Assembly (NCBI GenBank): GCA_902775345.1
Contig: CACYLW010000001.1
Span: 123,958 to 187,957 of the forward strand
DNA: 64,000 nucleotides
Source of the DNA: an uncultured Eubacteriales bacterium
Lineage (GTDB): Bacteria; Bacillota; Clostridia; Peptostreptococcales; Anaerovoracaceae
Direction: 5' to 3'
In this document: positions 46,475 through 54,155 of the stretch, piece after piece
Layout: every line of letters begins with the position of its first letter
Numbering within the stretch: the stretch's first letter is position 1
Notes under the pieces: generated by a model
The model's database searches: none
What the model saw: only the letters and a program-made list of their open reading frames with translations
Told to the model about the DNA's origin: nothing
Made by a program: the position numbers and the translations under genes

Positions 46475-47329
46475 TCAGTACCAGCCGCTGGACTGGAAAT
46501 GTGCCCATGCCGCGGATGGGGAGCCGTACCTTCCGGCTATGTATTTCAGTCCCCATCTTATCTGAGGCTCAGGATTGGTAAGATAGTCGCTTCCCTCAGA
46601 GGCCATCTTTGAACCCGGCAATGCCTGAGGTATGCCGTGAGCCCCGCTCCTTTTGTTATGCGAATTTGGGTTCCAGCCCGACTCTCTGTTCCAGAGGTAT
46701 ATCAGAGGCTCGATCTCTGATGCATCCCATCCGAAATCCGGCAGAAGTGAGAGAGCGTACTTCTGGTATTCTCCCTTGATGCCGCCCTCAATAGGCAGTC
46801 CCTCAGGAATATCCGAAGACAGCGTTCCCGCCGGAATGTAATACTCCTCATCGTCCACAACGATGCGGCTCCATCCGTTGTGCGTGACTCCCGTGCGCCG
46901 GATCATCTTGTCTTCGTCGATCGTTCCGGCGCTGCTGTATGACATGTCAGCGCCTGTCCTGTACTCGACTTTCTCCGTGGTCCACACGTACTCAAATAAT
47001 TCCTCGGAAATACCTTCCATGTAAGTCTTTATGACCTGACCGGCCTGCGCATTCACGTTGACTGTAGTATCTGAAAGGGTGACCGAACAGAGCTCCCTGA
47101 AAACGCGCATTTCAATATTGTGACACCAGACTCTGTACAGATAACCGCATGCCAGTATCACAGAAACCAGTTCGACCGCTATTATCACTCTCAGTATCGC
47201 AGGCTTTTTGCTTCGTACTCTGAGGTGTCTGGGCCTGGAGCCTTCTGCTTTTGCGTGTTTAGGATTGGCGATTTCCAGTTCGTTCTCTATGGCGCTTACC
47301 TCTCTGAAATCGAAAAAGGCCGTAATCAT
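46475..47329 (-). CDS. Membrane-anchored SLT-type lytic transglycosylase-like protein
   Basis: A protein of about 284 residues with a basic cytoplasmic N-terminus of about 45 residues, one membrane helix (AILRVIIAVELVSVILACGYLY) and an external domain. The C-terminus has an SLT-like muramidase fold: LIYLWNRESGWNPNSHN with the catalytic glutamate, SGAHGIPQALPGSKM, and AGRYGSPSAAWAHFQSSGWY, close to resuscitation-promoting or transglycosylase enzymes. The start is uncertain: TTG 47335 and ATG 47329 are possible and neither has a good ribosome site. It is encoded just ahead of LysR 2. Confidence 0.82.
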   Translation of the reverse strand: MITAFFDFREVSAIENELEIANPKHAKAEGSRPRHLRVRSKKPAILRVIIAVELVSVILACGYLYRVWCHNIEMRVFRELCSVTLSDTTVNVNAQAGQVIKTYMEGISEELFEYVWTTEKVEYRTGADMSYSSAGTIDEDKMIRRTGVTHNGWSRIVVDDEEYYIPAGTLSSDIPEGLPIEGGIKGEYQKYALSLLPDFGWDASEIEPLIYLWNRESGWNPNSHNKRSGAHGIPQALPGSKMASEGSDYLTNPEPQIRWGLKYIAGRYGSPSAAWAHFQSSGWY

Positions 47330-47471
47330 AATCAAATTATCATATGAAGTGAAGGCTTTTCAACTTATTCTTTCAAGTCAGCCGGCTTATGATAATATAA
47401 AAGCAGTCAAATGCACATATTTTTGAGCGGAATAAGGAAATACCGCCCGGACAGAAAGGAGCAGCTGACAG

Positions 47472-47882
47472 ATGATAAAACCTATAGTAAGGGATGCGTT
47501 CTTCCTTAATCAGAAGTCCGAAGAAGCGACCTGGGCCGACCTGGCCGTTGCGCAGGATCTCGAGGATACGCTCAAAGCGAACAGGGAACGGTGCGTCGGC
47601 ATGGCTGCGAACATGATCGGTTACAGGAAGCGCATCATTATCGTCGCGACAGGTTTTGCGGATCTTATAATGATAAACCCGGTAATAACGGAAAAGTCCG
47701 GACCATATGAAACAGAGGAGGGCTGCCTTTCACTTCCGGGAGTCAGAAAGACTACAAGGTATAACAAAATTACGGTGAGATACCTGGACAAGAAGTTCGC
47801 GGAACATACACAGAGCTTCAGCGGGTATATCGCGCAGATAATCCAGCATGAATGCGATCATCTGCAGGGAATACTGATTTAG
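47472..47882 (+). CDS. Peptide deformylase-like protein
   Basis: A 136-residue protein of the peptide deformylase family. Motif II EEGCLSLPG (metal Cys) and motif III IQHECDHLQG (HExxH-type with two metal His and the catalytic Glu) are intact. Motif I, normally GxGxAAxQ, reads GMAANMIG, so the glutamine that contacts the formyl substrate is methionine. It is shorter than housekeeping Def. It may be a divergent deformylase with altered specificity. It starts after AAAGGAGCAGCTGACAG; a possible -10 (TATAAT-like) lies near 47395. Confidence 0.85.
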   Translation: MIKPIVRDAFFLNQKSEEATWADLAVAQDLEDTLKANRERCVGMAANMIGYRKRIIIVATGFADLIMINPVITEKSGPYETEEGCLSLPGVRKTTRYNKITVRYLDKKFAEHTQSFSGYIAQIIQHECDHLQGILI

Positions 47883-47888
47883 CAAATA

Positions 47889-47932
47889 AAAAACCGCAAC
47901 TTTCTGTTATAGTAACGTGTTGCGGTTTCTTA
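47889..47932. terminator. Bidirectional terminator, AAACCGCAAC type, copy 1
   Basis: AAACCGCAAC and GTTGCGGTTT form the outer stem, with a small inner GTTA/TAAC inverted repeat. It has A residues on the left and T residues on the right and lies between convergent genes. A terminator with the same outer stem occurs at 56.2 kb. Confidence 0.88.
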
Positions 47933-48136
47933 TTATACTGTGATGACTTCAAAATCGTTGTTGTCAGTCTCGTGGAAGGACGCAAGCTTTGTCATCAAAG
48001 AAGTGACAGACCTTTCAGAATACTGCTTTGCTTCACTCTGTTCATAAGTGTTGATAAAGCACTTGTTCTTTGTCGAAAGCGATGCAACATAGCCTGTTTC
48101 ATTGCTATACTTGTTCGTCCACTTAATAATTACCAT
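47933..48136 (-). CDS. 67-residue small protein of unknown function
   Basis: A small basic, polar protein beginning MVIIKWTNKYSNETGYV and ending DNNDFEVITV. I do not recognise it. The start at 48136 was chosen because AGGAGG lies 8 bases upstream; a longer hydrophobic extension in frame (to 48238) would bypass that site. It converges on the deformylase-like gene across a terminator and is divergent from peptidase E. The overall composition suggests a soluble cytoplasmic protein. Confidence 0.65.
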   Translation of the reverse strand: MVIIKWTNKYSNETGYVASLSTKNKCFINTYEQSEAKQYSERSVTSLMTKLASFHETDNNDFEVITV

Positions 48137-48243
48137 TGCTATGACCTCCTTTCCTGGTAGTTTCAAGAGGGGATAATACTCTTTTGTAAACCAAATGTCA
48201 ACTGTAGTGCCGAGAAAGACAATAATAAAAAGGAGCAAAACGG

Positions 48244-49005
48244 ATGAAACTTTTTCTCACAAGCAGCCCTATCGGGATATACCGCAGTGACGAGCCGCTG
48301 AATTATGCAGGCTTCAATCCTGCTAACGGAATGGTGGCGGAGCTGAAACGATTCTGGGCAGATAATGCAAGATGCCTTCTCATATCTGCCTTTCATGATG
48401 ATCACGAACTCAATGACAGAATGAGAGAGGATTATGAGAATATAGTCAGGGATACCGGACTACCGCTCTCATGCATGGATATCTGCGATTCGAGGAACGG
48501 AAAAGAAAAGGCTGCCGGACTTCCGGGATATGATTTTGTCATACTGGGAGGCGGTCACGTTCCGACCGAGAATGCTTTTTTCAAAAGCATAGGACTTGCG
48601 GAAGCCTTCTCCAGCTTTGACGGAATAGTTATGGGTATCAGTGCCGGAACGATGAACTGCGCCCGCATCGTTTATGCACAGCCTGAACTTCCGGGTGAAG
48701 CAGGCGACCCGTGCTACGAACGCTTCATACCGGGGCTGGGACTGACTGAATATAACATTCTGCCTCACTATAATGCGGTAAAAAACGACATAATAGACGG
48801 CATGCGTCTGATAGAAGATATAGCTTTTGCGGACAGCGCTGGACGCACATTCTACGCGATCACAGACGGAAGCTACCTGCTCCAGACAGAAGACCGGGCG
48901 GAGATCAGAGGCGAAGCATACATGATCCGTGACGGTGAGATCAGACAGGTATGTACGGATGGGAGTATATTCAGACTGATCAGTTGCCTGAACGGATCAG
49001 TCTGA
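48244..49005 (+). CDS. Peptidase E (family S51)
   Basis: A 253-residue S51 family peptidase, which removes N-terminal aspartate from dipeptides or degrades cyanophycin-type products. The nucleophile is in MGISAGTMN; other landmarks are FVILGGGHVPTEN and LPHYNAV with the catalytic-region His. Ribosome site AAAGGAGCAAAACGG. Its 3' end overlaps the convergent ECF transporter gene by 26 bases. Confidence 0.88.
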   Translation: MKLFLTSSPIGIYRSDEPLNYAGFNPANGMVAELKRFWADNARCLLISAFHDDHELNDRMREDYENIVRDTGLPLSCMDICDSRNGKEKAAGLPGYDFVILGGGHVPTENAFFKSIGLAEAFSSFDGIVMGISAGTMNCARIVYAQPELPGEAGDPCYERFIPGLGLTEYNILPHYNAVKNDIIDGMRLIEDIAFADSAGRTFYAITDGSYLLQTEDRAEIRGEAYMIRDGEIRQVCTDGSIFRLISCLNGSV

Positions 49006-49477
49006 AGAGCGGCTGCATGGCCAGTGCCACTGCAATGCCTACGGCGAACTGTCCTGCATTCCAAGGGAGGCCAATCGCTGCAATAGCCCAGCTGCCGTAC
49101 ATGACGCGCTCAGCGATCAGATAACCGGTGCACATGATAAGACCGCCGGCTGTCATGGAAACAATTTTTGAGGTCTTTTCGACCAGATAGCCGGCAGCAA
49201 ACGCCATCGCAAATTTAATAAAGAAGCTCCATGGTGCCCAGAATGCGAATCCGCCAAGGACATCAGCGAGCGAAGAACCCAGGGCTGCAGCAACTGCGCC
49301 CTGTTTTTTTCCGAGCAGAAGCACGCCGGTGTAGACCATTGCGTCTCCAAGATGCACATAGCCCTGTGTCATCGGGACGGGTATCCTGAACAGGATCGTG
49401 CCAAGCAGAACGAGGCACACCATGAGTGCGGTGAGGACGAGCTTGTTTGTCCTGATATCTGAAGAATGTGGACTCAT
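48980..49477 (-). CDS. ECF transporter S component
   Basis: A 165-residue membrane protein with about six helices. The N-terminus has LVLTALMVCLVLLGTILF and the middle has YVHLGDAMVYTGVLLLG and AAALGSSLADVLGGFAFW, the layout of an energy-coupling-factor substrate-binding subunit. It would need shared EcfAAT components encoded elsewhere. The vitamin is not certain. Divergence from a PLP-dependent MocR regulator suggests vitamin B6 (PdxU type) or a related cofactor, by inference only. The start at 49477 follows AAGGAGGATCAC. Confidence 0.82.
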   Translation of the reverse strand: MSPHSSDIRTNKLVLTALMVCLVLLGTILFRIPVPMTQGYVHLGDAMVYTGVLLLGKKQGAVAAALGSSLADVLGGFAFWAPWSFFIKFAMAFAAGYLVEKTSKIVSMTAGGLIMCTGYLIAERVMYGSWAIAAIGLPWNAGQFAVGIAVALAMQPLFRLIRSGN

Positions 49478-49502
49478 GTGATCCTCCTTTTGACGGCTGT
49501 TC

Positions 49503-49552
49503 TTGAACGTTGTTATCATATGGATTATAATATCATGCGACTGAGATTTCAA
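49503..49552. promoter_or_regulatory. Two overlapping opposed promoters
   Basis: On the + strand, TTGAAC (49503-49508) and TATAAT (49526-49531) have a 17-base spacer. On the - strand, TTGAAA (complement of 49547-49552) and TATAAT (complement of 49524-49529) also have a 17-base spacer. The two -10 boxes share bases 49526-49529, so only one polymerase could bind at a time. The promoters serve the aminotransferase fusion and the ECF gene. Confidence 0.7.
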
Positions 49553-49610
49553 AAATGCTCATTTTGCGACTTTTATTGATAACAATTTAATTGATTTTGG
49601 GAGATAACAG

Positions 49611-51851
49611 ATGATTTCTGTGGAAATTGATCACAATTCAGGCAAAAGCCTTTATGTACAGCTCTATGAGTATCTGAAGAGGGAGATCGCGGAAGGCCGT
49701 ATCGAAACGGGAGAGCGGCTGCCTTCCCTGAGGGCAATGTCCGGCGCGGCCGGCATGAGTGTCACGACCGTTAAAACAGCCTATGAGCAGCTTATAGTGG
49801 AAGGATACCTGATAAGCAAGCCGCAATCAGGGTATTATGCAGCGCGGGGAGCTGTGATAAAGGACTCACGCAAAAGATCGAAGGACCATGAAGGGGAAGA
49901 TCCTGAGCGTGCAGGCGCGCAGAGCGGTGACAGGGATATGCAGAAAAACAACGGGACCTCTTTCAGCTGTGATCTCGAGTCCTTTGATTTCGTCAAATGG
50001 AAGAAATGCATGTCCGCAGTACTCAACGACACGCCGGAACTGCTGCTTTCTGATGCAGACCGTCAGGGCGAGCCTGCGCTCAGAGAGGAGATAGCAAGAT
50101 ATCTGTACAAGTCAAGAGGTGTGGTCTGCACTCAGGATCAGGTGGTTATCAGCGCGGGCACACAGCAGCTCATCAATCATCTGGCAAGGATCCTTAAAAT
50201 GATGGAGATAGTTCATGTGTCTGTCGAGGATCCGGGGTATATGCCTGTAAGGAGCATTATCCGTGACTGGGGCTTCAGCATGAGCTGCATCCCGGTAAAG
50301 GATGACGGCATAGTCATAGAGAGGCTTCCGGTGAACATCAGGACCGCTGTGTATATCTGTCCTCAGAACCAGTTCCCGACAGGGGCGCTTATGCCGATCA
50401 GCCGCAGACATGAGATACTCGACTGGGCGGAAGCCAACGACAGCATTATCATAGAAGACGACTACAACAGCGAACTCAGATACACAGGCATGCCTATACC
50501 TGCGCTCCAGGGAATAGACCACGGCAACAGAGTGGTCTATCTTGGCTCCTTCACATCCACGCTTTTCCCGGCAATAAGGATCAGCTATATGGTCCTGCCG
50601 AAAAAGATGGTGAAGCTGTATGAAAAAATACGCGGCAATTATGATCAGACCTGCTCCAAGACTGAGCAGCTGACACTGGCCGAGTTCATGAAGAGGGGGT
50701 TCTTCCACACCAATCTCAGACGGGTGCGTAAGCTTTATTCCGTCAAGCTGCAGGAGGCGCTGGAAGCGATCAGAGAGTACGGCAGCGCCGGTAATTTCAT
50801 AACGGCTGAGAATACCCAGTCAGGAATAAACATAATATTCAGGCTGAATACGCATACAATGGTGATTGCCGGGGGGCAGAACGGAGATGCCAGGTCTCAG
50901 GAGATACGCCGCGAAATGGCGGAGCGACTTGTACAGACAGCTGCTGAAGCCGGCATAAAGGTGAGAGACATTGAACAGCTCGACCGCGAAGGCCAGATAT
51001 ACATGGTGTTCTATTATAACCAGATCCCTCTCAGCCAGATCAGAACTGCTGTCAGGACCATGATCGAGGGGTTCAAGTCCGACGTAACAAAAGGAAGCCT
51101 CGGCCTTCCTTCAGTATACGAAGTCATCAGACTGAGCGGCGGCAGACCGCAGTTCCTGCAGGAACACTATGAGAGGCTCGAAAGATCTCTTGCAAGTATG
51201 CGGATACCTGTGCCTTTCACATGCGGTGAACTGGCCGGATGCATCGCCCGGCTTGCGGAAGAGAGCGGGATAAAGGATCACAATATAAAGATAGAAGTGG
51301 ATGTAAGCGGACACTCAATGATGTATCTGAACCCGACACACTATCCGTCCGCGGAGCTGTACGAGCACGGTGTCAGGACAGACCTTTTCAAAGGCGAGAG
51401 AAAGAATCCTAACATCAAGATGATGGACCGCGAGCTCAGAGACGCGACCGACAAAGCGATAAAAAGCGGAGGTCTCTACGAAGTGCTTCTGGTCAACAGG
51501 GACGGGGCCATTACAGAGGGCAGCCGTTCAAATGTGTTCTTCATAAAAAACGGAGAAATATATACTTCCCCGACGGATGCAGTACTGCCGGGCGTCACCA
51601 GGACCATTATCATAAGGATCATAGAGGAGGCGGGCATACCGCTGCACTACTGCGCGGTAAAAACGGATGAACTGGCGGACTTCGATTCAGCATTCATTAG
51701 CGGAACATCTCCTAAGGTCATGCCGGTCGCCAGCATCGGCGAGATCACATATGATGTGAACGATCCGGCGCTGAGATATATAATGGCGGGCTTCAACAGG
51801 AAATCAGAACAGTACGCCGGCGGCGTGCAGGAAGACAATGTACTAAAATAA
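49611..51851 (+). CDS. GntR-MocR / class I aminotransferase / class IV aminotransferase fusion
   Basis: A 746-residue three-domain protein. Residues 1-80: GntR winged helix (SLYVQLYEYLKREIAEGRI, MSVTTVKTAYEQL). Residues about 120-490: a MocR/PdxR-type class I fold with EDDYNSELRY, but the PLP-lysine position reads SFTSTLFP, with Ser316 instead of Lys, so it cannot form the usual aldimine. Residues about 500-730: a class IV aminotransferase (D-Ala/branched-chain/ADC-lyase group) with Lys603 in NIKMMDREL and ITEGSRSNVF carrying Glu636, so this domain looks active. I know MocR proteins but not this added enzyme domain. It probably senses or modifies an amino or vitamin ligand and controls the divergent ECF gene; this is inference. 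Confidence 0.85.
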   Translation: MISVEIDHNSGKSLYVQLYEYLKREIAEGRIETGERLPSLRAMSGAAGMSVTTVKTAYEQLIVEGYLISKPQSGYYAARGAVIKDSRKRSKDHEGEDPERAGAQSGDRDMQKNNGTSFSCDLESFDFVKWKKCMSAVLNDTPELLLSDADRQGEPALREEIARYLYKSRGVVCTQDQVVISAGTQQLINHLARILKMMEIVHVSVEDPGYMPVRSIIRDWGFSMSCIPVKDDGIVIERLPVNIRTAVYICPQNQFPTGALMPISRRHEILDWAEANDSIIIEDDYNSELRYTGMPIPALQGIDHGNRVVYLGSFTSTLFPAIRISYMVLPKKMVKLYEKIRGNYDQTCSKTEQLTLAEFMKRGFFHTNLRRVRKLYSVKLQEALEAIREYGSAGNFITAENTQSGINIIFRLNTHTMVIAGGQNGDARSQEIRREMAERLVQTAAEAGIKVRDIEQLDREGQIYMVFYYNQIPLSQIRTAVRTMIEGFKSDVTKGSLGLPSVYEVIRLSGGRPQFLQEHYERLERSLASMRIPVPFTCGELAGCIARLAEESGIKDHNIKIEVDVSGHSMMYLNPTHYPSAELYEHGVRTDLFKGERKNPNIKMMDRELRDATDKAIKSGGLYEVLLVNRDGAITEGSRSNVFFIKNGEIYTSPTDAVLPGVTRTIIIRIIEEAGIPLHYCAVKTDELADFDSAFISGTSPKVMPVASIGEITYDVNDPALRYIMAGFNRKSEQYAGGVQEDNVLK

Positions 51852-51932
51852 AAAAGGTTTCTGTATCACACAAAGGTTGATATCCGGCCGCAGCAATCCT
51901 AAAATAGGTATGCGGAAATTGGAGATAATGCT

Positions 51933-54155
51933 GTGTCAGAAATAATAAACGATAACGACAAAGACAAAGATAAAGATAATAGCAGCGGCAGGAAGATAAA
52001 CTTCAAATGGAAAGACATTGACGCTGACGCCGGCAAGAAATCCGGAAGAAAACTCTTCAGCTTCAGAAAGAAAAAGACCACCGGCGCATCAAAGCCTCTG
52101 ACAAAAGGCAAGGTGCTTCTGGGCGTTCTGTGTCTTATTGTGCTCGCACTCGCGGGGGCTTTTGCGTACGCTTATAATTCTGTGCCGGATGTCGATCCTG
52201 ATGCCAGCACCATCTACTCCAATATAGCTCTCAGCTCCATCATCTATGATTCAAAGGGTGCGGAGATCGACAAACTCTACTATACCGAAGACAGGGAAGT
52301 CGTCTCCATAAAAGATATTCCGGAGAATACAAAGAATGCTTTCATCGCCATAGAGGACAAAACGTTCTACAAGCATCATGGGCTGAATTACAAAAGACTG
52401 ATCGGCGCTGTCTTCAGCAAGCTGACCGGACGGACCAGCGAGATCAGCGGAACATCAACTATTACGCAGCAGCTTGCCAGAAACGTGTTTCTTTCAGACA
52501 TAAAAAGCGAACGTACGCTGAGCCGTAAGTTCCGCGAGATGATCTATGCCCTCAAGATCGAAAAGGCGTATTCAAAGGACGAGATCCTTGAGGCGTATCT
52601 GAACACAATATATCTGGGGTATGGATGTTACGGGATCAAAGCTGCGGCATATACATATTTCGGAAAGGAAGTGGATGAGCTCAGCCTCGAGGAAAGCGCT
52701 GCTCTTGCGGCACTTCCGCAGGCTCCTGATTCATACGCCCTTCTGAAAGACAGTGAGGACGAAAATACGACCTACATGAAAAGCAGCGGCCTGTATGCGA
52801 ATGAAATCGCTGCTGAAAGGCGGGACCTGGTGCTCGATCTCATGGAGGAACAGGGCTATATCGATTCCTCCGAGGCGGATGAGGCAAAGAAAAAGATAGC
52901 TGATATACTTGATCCGCACATAGCTAAGAAACCTAAGGAACTGACATATTTCACGGATTATCTTACGGACGAGGTCGCTAATGACCTCGCAGATGAATAT
53001 TCCATGTCACTTGAAAAGGCGGAGCGGATCATACATACAGGCGGTCTCCGCATCTATTCGACTATCGACCAGGATATACAGAAAGCGATCAACACTGAAT
53101 TCAGCGATGACTGGAATTTCCCGTATTCAGAGGAAACTCCGCAGGCGGCAATGGTGGTGACTGAAGTCGGCACGGGACGGATCCGTGCGATGGTAGGCGG
53201 AAGGAACACCTCCGGACAGATGCTGTTCAACAGGGCGACATCTCCGAGGCAGCCGGGGTCATCGATCAAACCTCTGTCCGTGTACTCTGCTGCCCTCCAG
53301 AAGAGTGAGGATTATGCCAAGCGCGGCATGCCGTTCCCGTTCACTGATTTCGGGTATGACAGACAGGGCGTGTACCGCTGGGGAAAATATATCACTGCAG
53401 GCTCTACGGTGGTAGACGAGAGAATGTTCATCGACGGCGAGATGTGGCCGCTGAACTTCTCGAGGCGGTTCTCCGGATACAGGACTTTCAGGACGGCGCT
53501 GCAGCAGTCGATCAACACCTGCGCGGTGAAGATACAGCTTCAGGTCGGTGCTGACTACTCGATGGAAATGTTGCGGAAATACGGTATCTCGACGATCGCT
53601 GATGACGCTTCCGAGCCGACCAACGACTACAACCCTGCTGCGTTGGCTCTGGGAGCAATGACATATGGTACGACACCGCTCGACATGGCGCTTGCCTACG
53701 GAACATTCCCAAACAAAGGCGTGAGAAACTCCGCGGCCGCATACACCAAGGTGACGGACTCAAAAGGAAAGGTGATCCTTGAAAAAGAGCCCGAAGGTAC
53801 TCAGGTGCTCGATGAGAATGTGGCGTTCATAATGAGAGACTGTCTTGAGTCCGTAGTCTCGAGAGGCATAGCCTATAACGCATCGATATACGGTGTACAG
53901 GTCGGAGGAAAAACCGGTACCACAAATGACAACTATGATTACTGGTTCGTGGGATTTACTCCGAAGTATTCCGCCGCGCTCTGGATAGGAACAGACCATA
54001 ATACTGTCATGAGCGGATCGTCCGGGATAGCTGCTCTGTTATGGGGCAGGATAATGAGCCAGGTACCGGATGTTACAGAGGGGGAATATCCTCCGCAGCC
54101 GGATGATGTAGTCACCGTTTACGGAGAGTACTACACCGAAAAAACACAGCCATGA
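51933..54155 (+). CDS. Class A penicillin-binding protein (PBP1A type)
   Basis: A bifunctional glycosyltransferase-transpeptidase that builds peptidoglycan. It has a basic, Lys/Asp-rich cytoplasmic tail of about 60 residues, a membrane helix (LLGVLCLIVLALAGAFAYAY), a GT51 domain (EDKTFYKHHGLN, STITQQLARNVF, LNTIYLGYGCYG) and a transpeptidase domain with SSIKP (SxxK), SINTC (SxN) and KTGTT. The start is GTG 51933 with GGAG eight bases before it; an ATG at 51928 is in another frame. It follows the fusion gene by 81 bases. The 740-residue length is usual. Confidence 0.95.
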   Translation: MSEIINDNDKDKDKDNSSGRKINFKWKDIDADAGKKSGRKLFSFRKKKTTGASKPLTKGKVLLGVLCLIVLALAGAFAYAYNSVPDVDPDASTIYSNIALSSIIYDSKGAEIDKLYYTEDREVVSIKDIPENTKNAFIAIEDKTFYKHHGLNYKRLIGAVFSKLTGRTSEISGTSTITQQLARNVFLSDIKSERTLSRKFREMIYALKIEKAYSKDEILEAYLNTIYLGYGCYGIKAAAYTYFGKEVDELSLEESAALAALPQAPDSYALLKDSEDENTTYMKSSGLYANEIAAERRDLVLDLMEEQGYIDSSEADEAKKKIADILDPHIAKKPKELTYFTDYLTDEVANDLADEYSMSLEKAERIIHTGGLRIYSTIDQDIQKAINTEFSDDWNFPYSEETPQAAMVVTEVGTGRIRAMVGGRNTSGQMLFNRATSPRQPGSSIKPLSVYSAALQKSEDYAKRGMPFPFTDFGYDRQGVYRWGKYITAGSTVVDERMFIDGEMWPLNFSRRFSGYRTFRTALQQSINTCAVKIQLQVGADYSMEMLRKYGISTIADDASEPTNDYNPAALALGAMTYGTTPLDMALAYGTFPNKGVRNSAAAYTKVTDSKGKVILEKEPEGTQVLDENVAFIMRDCLESVVSRGIAYNASIYGVQVGGKTGTTNDNYDYWFVGFTPKYSAALWIGTDHNTVMSGSSGIAALLWGRIMSQVPDVTEGEYPPQPDDVVTVYGEYYTEKTQP

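Follow-up and report, generated by a model that had tools for sequence, protein, structure and literature searches.

A probable PdxR-lineage regulator that has lost the MocR lysine and is fused to a fold type IV transaminase, encoded beside a gene of a vitamin B6 transporter family

PLP binding by the known MocR regulators rests on a Schiff-base lysine. A gene in the 64,000-nucleotide stretch of DNA analysed here (the window) raises the question of what such a protein does when this lysine is replaced and a second aminotransferase is attached. A preliminary description, made from the sequence, had noted a GntR HTH, a class I aminotransferase fold with serine at the lysine position, and an intact-looking class IV aminotransferase. 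It had suggested that PLP sensing may have moved from a dead class I domain to the class IV domain, and had named structure prediction and a search for the same architecture as checks. The gene and its parts are as follows.

49611-51851, plus strand: 746-aa ORF for the fusion of a GntR winged HTH, a fold type I aminotransferase domain without the lysine, and a fold type IV aminotransferase
49650-49838, plus strand: GntR winged HTH, residues 14-76 (Pfam PF00392, 3e-13)
49956-51080, plus strand: fold type I (MocR/PdxR) domain, approximately residues 116-490 (NF052282, counts of pocket residues, Foldseek)
50556-50558, plus strand: codon of Ser316 (translation, alignment)
51111-51737, plus strand: fold type IV transaminase domain, residues 501-709, with Arg507, Lys603, Glu636 and GSRS at 637-640 (PF01063)

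The fused protein and its two aminotransferase pockets

Translation of the ORF gave no internal stops. The three domains were recovered by Pfam (GntR at residues 14-76, 3e-13; Aminotran_1_2 at 150-363, 4.7e-10; Aminotran_4 at 502-709, 1.1e-42). The NCBIfam PdxR equivalog NF052282 matched residues 13-484 with 435.9 bits (cut-off 320). An AlphaFold2 model, calculated with 48 aligned sequences as input, had a mean pLDDT of 86.8, with values below 50 only at residues 84-114 and 739-746, and Foldseek found matches for both folds. GabR and PdxR led the matches of the regulator part (TMt 0.84-0.86 for the chains of 7pq9), and DtolTA those of the C-terminal part (9j0v, TMt 0.91, rmsd 1.9, 37% identity). 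By sequence, the nearest solved structures were B. clausii PdxR for the class I domain and DtolTA (9j0u, 3.4e-39) for the class IV domain. The gene is present in one copy in its own genome (2.25 Mb, 90.5% complete), and the search for the same architecture returned the fusion from many separate assemblies at 57-87% identity. Because of this recurrence, a sequencing error or a split gene was ruled out. The three-domain architecture and the loss of the MocR lysine are real, and as an architecture the "possible new kind of enzyme-regulator" of the preliminary description is supported. A search with Rfam at gathering thresholds over 47000-53000 gave no match.

Ser316, located in LGSFTSTLFPAIRIS, aligned with the Schiff-base lysine of B. 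clausii PdxR (7pq9) and of GabR (4n0b). This lysine has been reported as conserved in all MocR clusters, and Tyr205, Phe250, Asp279 and Tyr281 of GabR are described as pocket residues (PMC6677901). We counted the pocket residues in 34 fused sequences and in 69 unfused relatives with Ser or Thr at position 316. Tyr210 (Tyr205 in GabR) was found in 34/34 fused and 68/69 unfused sequences, Phe255 (Phe250) in 32/34, with Tyr in the other two, and 62/69, Asp283 (Asp279) in 34/34 and 68/69, and Tyr285 (Tyr281) in 33/34 and 69/69. Arg319 of GabR has a phosphate role; its counterpart Arg323 was present in all 34 fused sequences and is Lys in 53 of the 69 unfused ones. The position of GabR His248 (253 here) was occupied by Asn in 34/34 and 62/69. 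In a clade of fused proteins with Pro316 (see below), all five contact residues were kept in 11 of 11 sequences, L049 included. Judged from these counts, the class I pocket is not dead, contrary to the preliminary description: apart from the lysine, most of the B6-pocket residues examined are retained. Since the lysine is gone and most of the pocket remains, a non-covalently held B6 compound is most likely what is read; the pocket would suit PMP, or else PLP bound to an amino acid.

In its winged HTH, its class I fold and its score above the PdxR equivalog cut-off, the fused protein resembles PdxR (B. clausii, 7pq9/7zla; streptococcal pdxR-pdxKU), and it differs from PdxR by the missing Schiff-base lysine and the additional C-terminal class IV transaminase. 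It also resembles B. subtilis GabR in the class I fold and the five kept contact residues, whereas GabR holds PLP by Lys312, senses GABA and has no class IV domain. Without this lysine the fused protein is no standard MocR, although it derives from one. Neither a fusion of a MocR with a class IV domain nor a group of MocRs lacking the lysine was mentioned in the open-licence literature that was searched.

Another lysine might form the Schiff base in the class I domain, for which K129, K450 and, in the unfused proteins, K323 would be candidates. K129 (49995-49997) occurred in 0/7 lysine-bearing sister sequences, 93% of the unfused lysine-less and 100% of the fused lysine-less proteins, so that by the residue counts of these groups it arose together with the loss of K316. 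K450 (50958-50960) occurs almost only in fused proteins (91% and 100%, versus 10% in unfused ones), and Lys323 is the common residue of the unfused relatives as counted above. Position 323, however, is invariably Arg in the fused proteins, and in the model the first class I helix (127-140) begins at K129, while K450 directly precedes a short small-domain strand (451-453). We regard a replacement lysine as very unlikely.

The class IV site appears intact. Lys603 and Glu636 were present in 34/34 fused sequences, and Y503, R507, R522, N558, R610, GSRS 637-640, T663, R664, G698 and T699 were likewise invariant; position 560 was Lys in 23 and Arg in 11 sequences, and position 608 was variable. With the exception of R507 and 608, the residues correspond to those that in DtolTA, from Desulfobacula toluolica (9j0u/9j0v), are described as binding PLP or belonging to the pocket (PMC11673721): counterparts of Tyr34, Arg53, Lys137, Arg144, Glu170, GSRS, Thr198-Arg199 and Gly233-Thr234 were found in all 34. 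DtolTA is described as a monomeric transaminase that converts PLP and D-alanine to free PMP; the first half-reaction alone was seen, with PMP released, and the authors allow that the proper acceptor was missed (PMC11673721). Unlike DtolTA, which is a free protein, the class IV domain is here fused to a regulator, carries Arg507 in place of Gln38, varies at the position of Ser142 (608), and is about 30 residues shorter at its N-terminus. The match begins at DtolTA residue 31, and the missing residues are the dimerisation-blocking segment. In the model the C-terminal helix of the class I domain (474-494) continues into the first class IV strand (501-509), which leaves no room for the roughly 30 residues with which a free class IV enzyme begins; the segment before this strand was kept in 11 of 12 standalone class IV relatives.

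Arg also stands at the position of Arg507 in 12/12 standalone relatives. In our own alignment this is presumably the place of Lys35 of the Bacillus D-amino acid transaminase. Lys35 is named as a group able to fix the gamma-carboxylate of glutamate (PMC11673721), and Arg507 hints at 2-oxoglutarate/D-glutamate as substrates.

Around the standalone class IV relatives (flagellar genes, Usp, PDZ protease, selB, RmuC) no B6 pathway was indicated. Standalone DtolTA-like genes divergently adjoin a flagellar cluster in three loci (L191, L196, L197), identified by Pfam in L197 (flaG, fliD, fliS, flgN) and by blastp in the other two. A role as folate lyase (PabC) is unsupported: the PabC models scored under cut-off, and the scanned neighbours of standalone relatives (10 proteins) included no folate gene.

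The divergent transporter gene and the predicted operator

Upstream of the fused gene the following features were found.

48980-49477, minus strand: divergent gene for an ECF transporter S-component (PdxU/HmpT family, PF07155), likely ATG at 49477 (PF07155, ribosome-binding site)
49503-49531, plus strand: sigma-70-like promoter of the fused gene, TTGAAC-N17-TATAAT (promoter scan)
49524-49552, minus strand: TTGAAA-N17-TATAAT, sigma-70-like promoter for the S-component gene, which overlaps the -10 box of the fused gene's promoter (promoter scan)
49553-49590, plus strand: predicted operator of two direct repeats (CA at 49560 and 49583, 23-bp pair; alignment, repeat statistics)

The S-component matched PF07155 with 6.6e-31 (on the longer ORF from 49552), and its nearest solved relative was HmpT (4hzu_S, 4.4e-13). 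With the likely ATG at 49477 and AGGAGG at 49488 on the minus strand as ribosome-binding site, 49478-49610 had been correctly taken as the intergenic region. The PF07155 family contains PdxU and PdxU2/HmpT (PMC9997740), and HmpT was found with pyridoxamine (PMC4860826). In one pairwise alignment, read by eye, the columns of the pyridoxamine-binding HmpT residues Glu41 and His84 hold Asp and Lys in the S-component, so that the substrate may differ.

By blastp, 20 of 21 HTH-bearing fused loci with more than 700 bp of upstream sequence had the divergent S-component, the one without it being L049; a further locus with 27 bp upstream was left unjudged. It was found in 51 of 82 judged unfused loci, lysine-bearing ones included, and not in the other 31, with 4 more unjudged for too little sequence. 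None of nine HTH-less loci with more than 900 bp upstream had it.

The promoter scan returned three promoter-like sites (0.8 expected), and 20 aligned fused upstream regions share an invariant block of seven columns at the -10 box. The two promoters face each other with their -10 boxes in common. Relative to the S-component promoter the repeats are immediately upstream of the -35 box, and relative to the regulator promoter they are downstream of the -10 box. This position would be a place for activation of the S-component gene together with repression of the regulator gene. By chance figures that treat related sequences as independent, the 23-bp pair occurred in 13 of 20 fused loci (0.5 by chance) and the 24-bp pair in 9 (0.8), these sets overlapping, while the 24-bp pair was present in 30/70 unfused Ser/Thr/Ala loci (2.8), in 4/7 lysine-bearing loci with an S-component (0.2) and in 3/8 lysine-bearing loci without one (0.5). 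Some pair at 23-25 bp was found in 16/20 fused loci and none in 4, and the 24-bp repeat was missed in many loci that have the S-component. The tested repeat pattern had one match in its own genome, at the predicted operator (reversed control: 0); in eight relatives it occurred once each in five and not in three. As it is unique in its own genome, this divergon is the probable target, although the pattern would not detect a more loosely matching site.

With a divergent gene of a B6-transporter family and a predicted direct-repeat operator, the locus resembles a vitamin B6 divergon of the PdxR/PdxU type, and at the sequence level its layout and the operator statistics would fit a control of B6 genes from the shared repeat region. 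Streptococcal PdxR represses pdxR and activates pdxKU under B6 lack, with a modest effect on pdxKU and mixed transcript data (PMC11619246). In contrast to that system, the S-component has no adjoining kinase gene in the window. Unfused relatives such as L066 and L070 form a family-wide, lysine-less PdxR-like group, many members of which have divergent S-components and the 24-bp direct-repeat operator; it includes Hornefia butyriciproducens and Eubacterium pyruvativorans.

Distribution of the fusion and order of events

The named relatives come mostly from uncultured gut or rumen assemblies labelled Mogibacterium, Clostridiales, Clostridia or Bacillota. In the genome surveys the best two to three candidates per genome were scored under strict thresholds (1e-165 for the family, 1e-80 for the phylum). 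Of 349 family genomes, 42 had a match at E <= 1e-165; these fall into 2 of 92 genera, 26 (its own included) into the genus of the window (g1) and 16 into a second genus (g36). The match extends into the class IV domain in 39 of the 42, and covers residues 1-492 only in G001, G015 and G347 of g1. It runs from residue 1 into the class IV domain in 21 g1 genomes and one g36 genome (G410); the other 15 g36 matches start at residue 86 or later, and in G032 and G033 (g1) the fused match is cut at a contig end. In the phylum survey 10 of 398 genomes matched at E <= 1e-80; no fusion was seen there outside its own genome, the other matches ending by residue 488.

Copies of one locus that were identical to another, or contained in it, were dropped first, and 121 distinct relatives were then classified. 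The unfused ones carry Ser (66), Thr (3), Ala (1), Asn (1) or Lys (15, and one more without a detected HTH) at position 316; the fused ones comprise 21 with HTH and Ser, one with HTH and Pro, 10 with Pro and no HTH, and two 5'-cut sequences with Ser. As these relatives were drawn from search hits, the proportion without the lysine should not be read as a census. A maximum-likelihood tree was calculated from the class I alignment after removal of column 316 (110 rows, 358 columns; 11 of the 121 were left out as more than 93% identical or too short). It placed the lysine-bearing proteins basally, followed by a single lysine-less clade of 92 of the 110 rows (bootstrap 100, SH-aLRT 98). Of these 92 rows, 65 are unfused; the 27 fused rows group together as a single nested clade (98/93), and this clade contains the Pro316 proteins as a clade of nine rows (100/99), eight without the HTH and L049 with it. 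The direction of the tree rests on the chosen outgroup, which did not fall on one side of a branch. The likely order is that the lysine was lost, the class IV domain was then gained, and the HTH was lost on one branch. A loss of the lysine because of the fusion was rejected, since the lysine-less state is older on the tree. Outside the main lysine-less clade, the MocR lysine was lost separately two more times, in L152 (to Ser) and in L160 (to Asn). Lysine-bearing MocRs of the outgroup divergently adjoin pdxS (L033, L034) or a pyridoxamine kinase gene (L086).

This order bears on the proposal of a dead class I domain whose PLP sensing was taken over by the class IV domain as a new sensor. The replacement of the lysine by Ser316 and the constancy of K603 and E636 in 34/34 fused proteins would suit it. 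Against it, there are many unfused proteins without the lysine (66 Ser, 3 Thr, 1 Ala and 1 Asn of 121), which on the tree predate the fusion, and many of them keep transporter and operator without a class IV domain, so that the loss of the lysine needed no replacement. As the class I pocket residues are conserved as well, we consider this take-over quite improbable. What the class IV domain contributes may be an enzyme activity or a second sensor.

HTH-less fused proteins with Pro316 were seen in g36 (L057, L058, L059, L061, L065, L081, L085, L121 and others). A tblastn search of eight HTH-less loci with residues 1-130 gave nothing convincing (best E 0.22), L061 having little upstream sequence and L060 containing a run of N. 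The neighbours of the HTH-less and related genes (DcuC-type carrier, M20 peptidase, asparaginase, histidine kinase, aldehyde dehydrogenase family) indicated no B6 pathway. G298, G311 and G319 contain an HTH-less fused gene together with an unfused Ser-type regulator that has a divergent S-component; because of this coexistence the fused copy resembles an extra one that left regulation. The g36 fused genes perhaps reflect transfer between the two genera, and the HTH-less proteins are possibly a regulator turned enzyme. The ratio of class I to class IV divergence had a median of 0.74 in HTH-bearing fused pairs (120 pairs, not independent) and was 1.32 in HTH-less pairs (28 pairs, not independent). 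By these ratios constraint shifts upon loss of the HTH: the class I domain diverges more slowly than the class IV domain before it and faster after it.

Most g36 fused genes have lost the HTH and kept both pockets, and both folds therefore seem to have a job that is independent of DNA. The class IV part could instead be an ordinary metabolic transaminase for D-amino or branched-chain amino acids, joined for co-expression, with the two halves independent. Its best NCBIfam matches are indeed D-amino-acid and branched-chain transaminase models, all under cut-off, and a standalone homologue of 45% identity in the same genus lies beside genes for a Mrp/NUBPL-type NTPase and selB, not beside B6 genes. 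We regard this possibility as unlikely, as the two folds remain joined after loss of the HTH and the five class I pocket residues are retained throughout the Pro316 clade, which suggests that the folds cooperate.

Vitamin B6 supply and a proposed role of the fusion

A B6 survey of 60 genomes, many of them incomplete, found pdxS (PF01680) over cut-off in 12 of the 60 and in none of the 36 genomes of the genus, its own included (G010 had a weak match of 20.1 bits, under cut-off). The C-terminal domain of PdxH was detected in none of the 60, and in 3 of 14 control genomes. The genome of the window has a pyridoxamine kinase equivalog (284.7 bits, cut-off 231). Split-barrel proteins of PF01243 occurred in 28 of the 36 genus genomes, two of them in its own genome, so that a PMP oxidase may be among them. 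From the gut relatives we infer an anaerobic host. An anaerobe that imports pyridoxamine and makes PMP needs a route to PLP, and a half-transamination is one. To our knowledge no sequence has been assigned to the pyridoxamine-phosphate transaminase EC 2.6.1.54; its product is D-glutamate, which would fit a fold IV enzyme. This activity, on free PMP and a keto acid, is recorded for Clostridium kainantoi (PMC9309667), and it serves here for comparison as an activity on record.

In the reading that we favour with moderate confidence, the protein is a derived, lysine-less regulator of B6 uptake from the PdxR lineage that carries a transaminase converting PLP and PMP. It would bind the direct repeats between its own gene and the PdxU/HmpT-type uptake gene, and would repress its own promoter and activate the transporter when B6 is scarce. 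The class I pocket would most likely read non-covalently held PMP, or PLP as external aldimine, while the DtolTA-like fold IV part would convert PLP to PMP and back, using a D-amino acid and a keto acid; a hand-over between the two pockets is conceivable. For this speak the PdxR score, the nearest structures, the S-component, the repeats, the promoters, the B6 genes beside outgroup MocRs, the lack of a pdxS match over cut-off in the genus, the kinase and the kept pocket. On the other side, a regulator without the Schiff-base lysine might not respond to B6 at all. Several sequence observations also count against it: Lys at the Arg323 position in 53/69 unfused relatives and Asn at that of His248 in all 34 fused ones, the changes at HmpT Glu41/His84, and the 31 of 82 unfused loci without an S-component. 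Further such observations are the 24-bp repeat in 3/8 lysine-bearing loci that lack an S-component and its absence from many loci that have one, the short N-terminus of the class IV domain, and the PF01243 candidates for a PMP oxidase. Taken together, the protein probably works like PdxR with an added transaminase.

A bolder version of this reading would make a B6-salvage enzyme its own regulator. The class IV domain would be an oxygen-independent PMP:2-oxoacid transaminase that makes PLP from imported, phosphorylated pyridoxamine, the lysine-less class I domain would set the expression level of the uptake gene as a PMP sensor or as a site where PMP is handed over, and the HTH-less g36 proteins would be the enzyme alone. 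We put this forward tentatively and think it unlikely. Standalone class IV genes are also present in genomes with pdxS (for instance G036, G039, G040 and G045), so that the enzyme does not track the need for a PMP-to-PLP route, and the frequency of PF01243 proteins and the modest effect of streptococcal PdxR likewise count against it.

The MocR regulators are the standard example of how an enzyme became a sensor, with the PLP lysine treated as a fixed part. The lysine-less group, with most of the pocket kept, provides natural variants with which the role of the lysine in sensing can be tested, and the fusion with its HTH-less descendants suggests a path on which a regulator moves back in the direction of an enzyme. 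Should the class IV domain act on free PMP, it would supply a sequence for the Clostridium activity EC 2.6.1.54, and would suggest how PLP may be obtained from pyridoxamine in an anaerobe without pdxS or a canonical PdxH.
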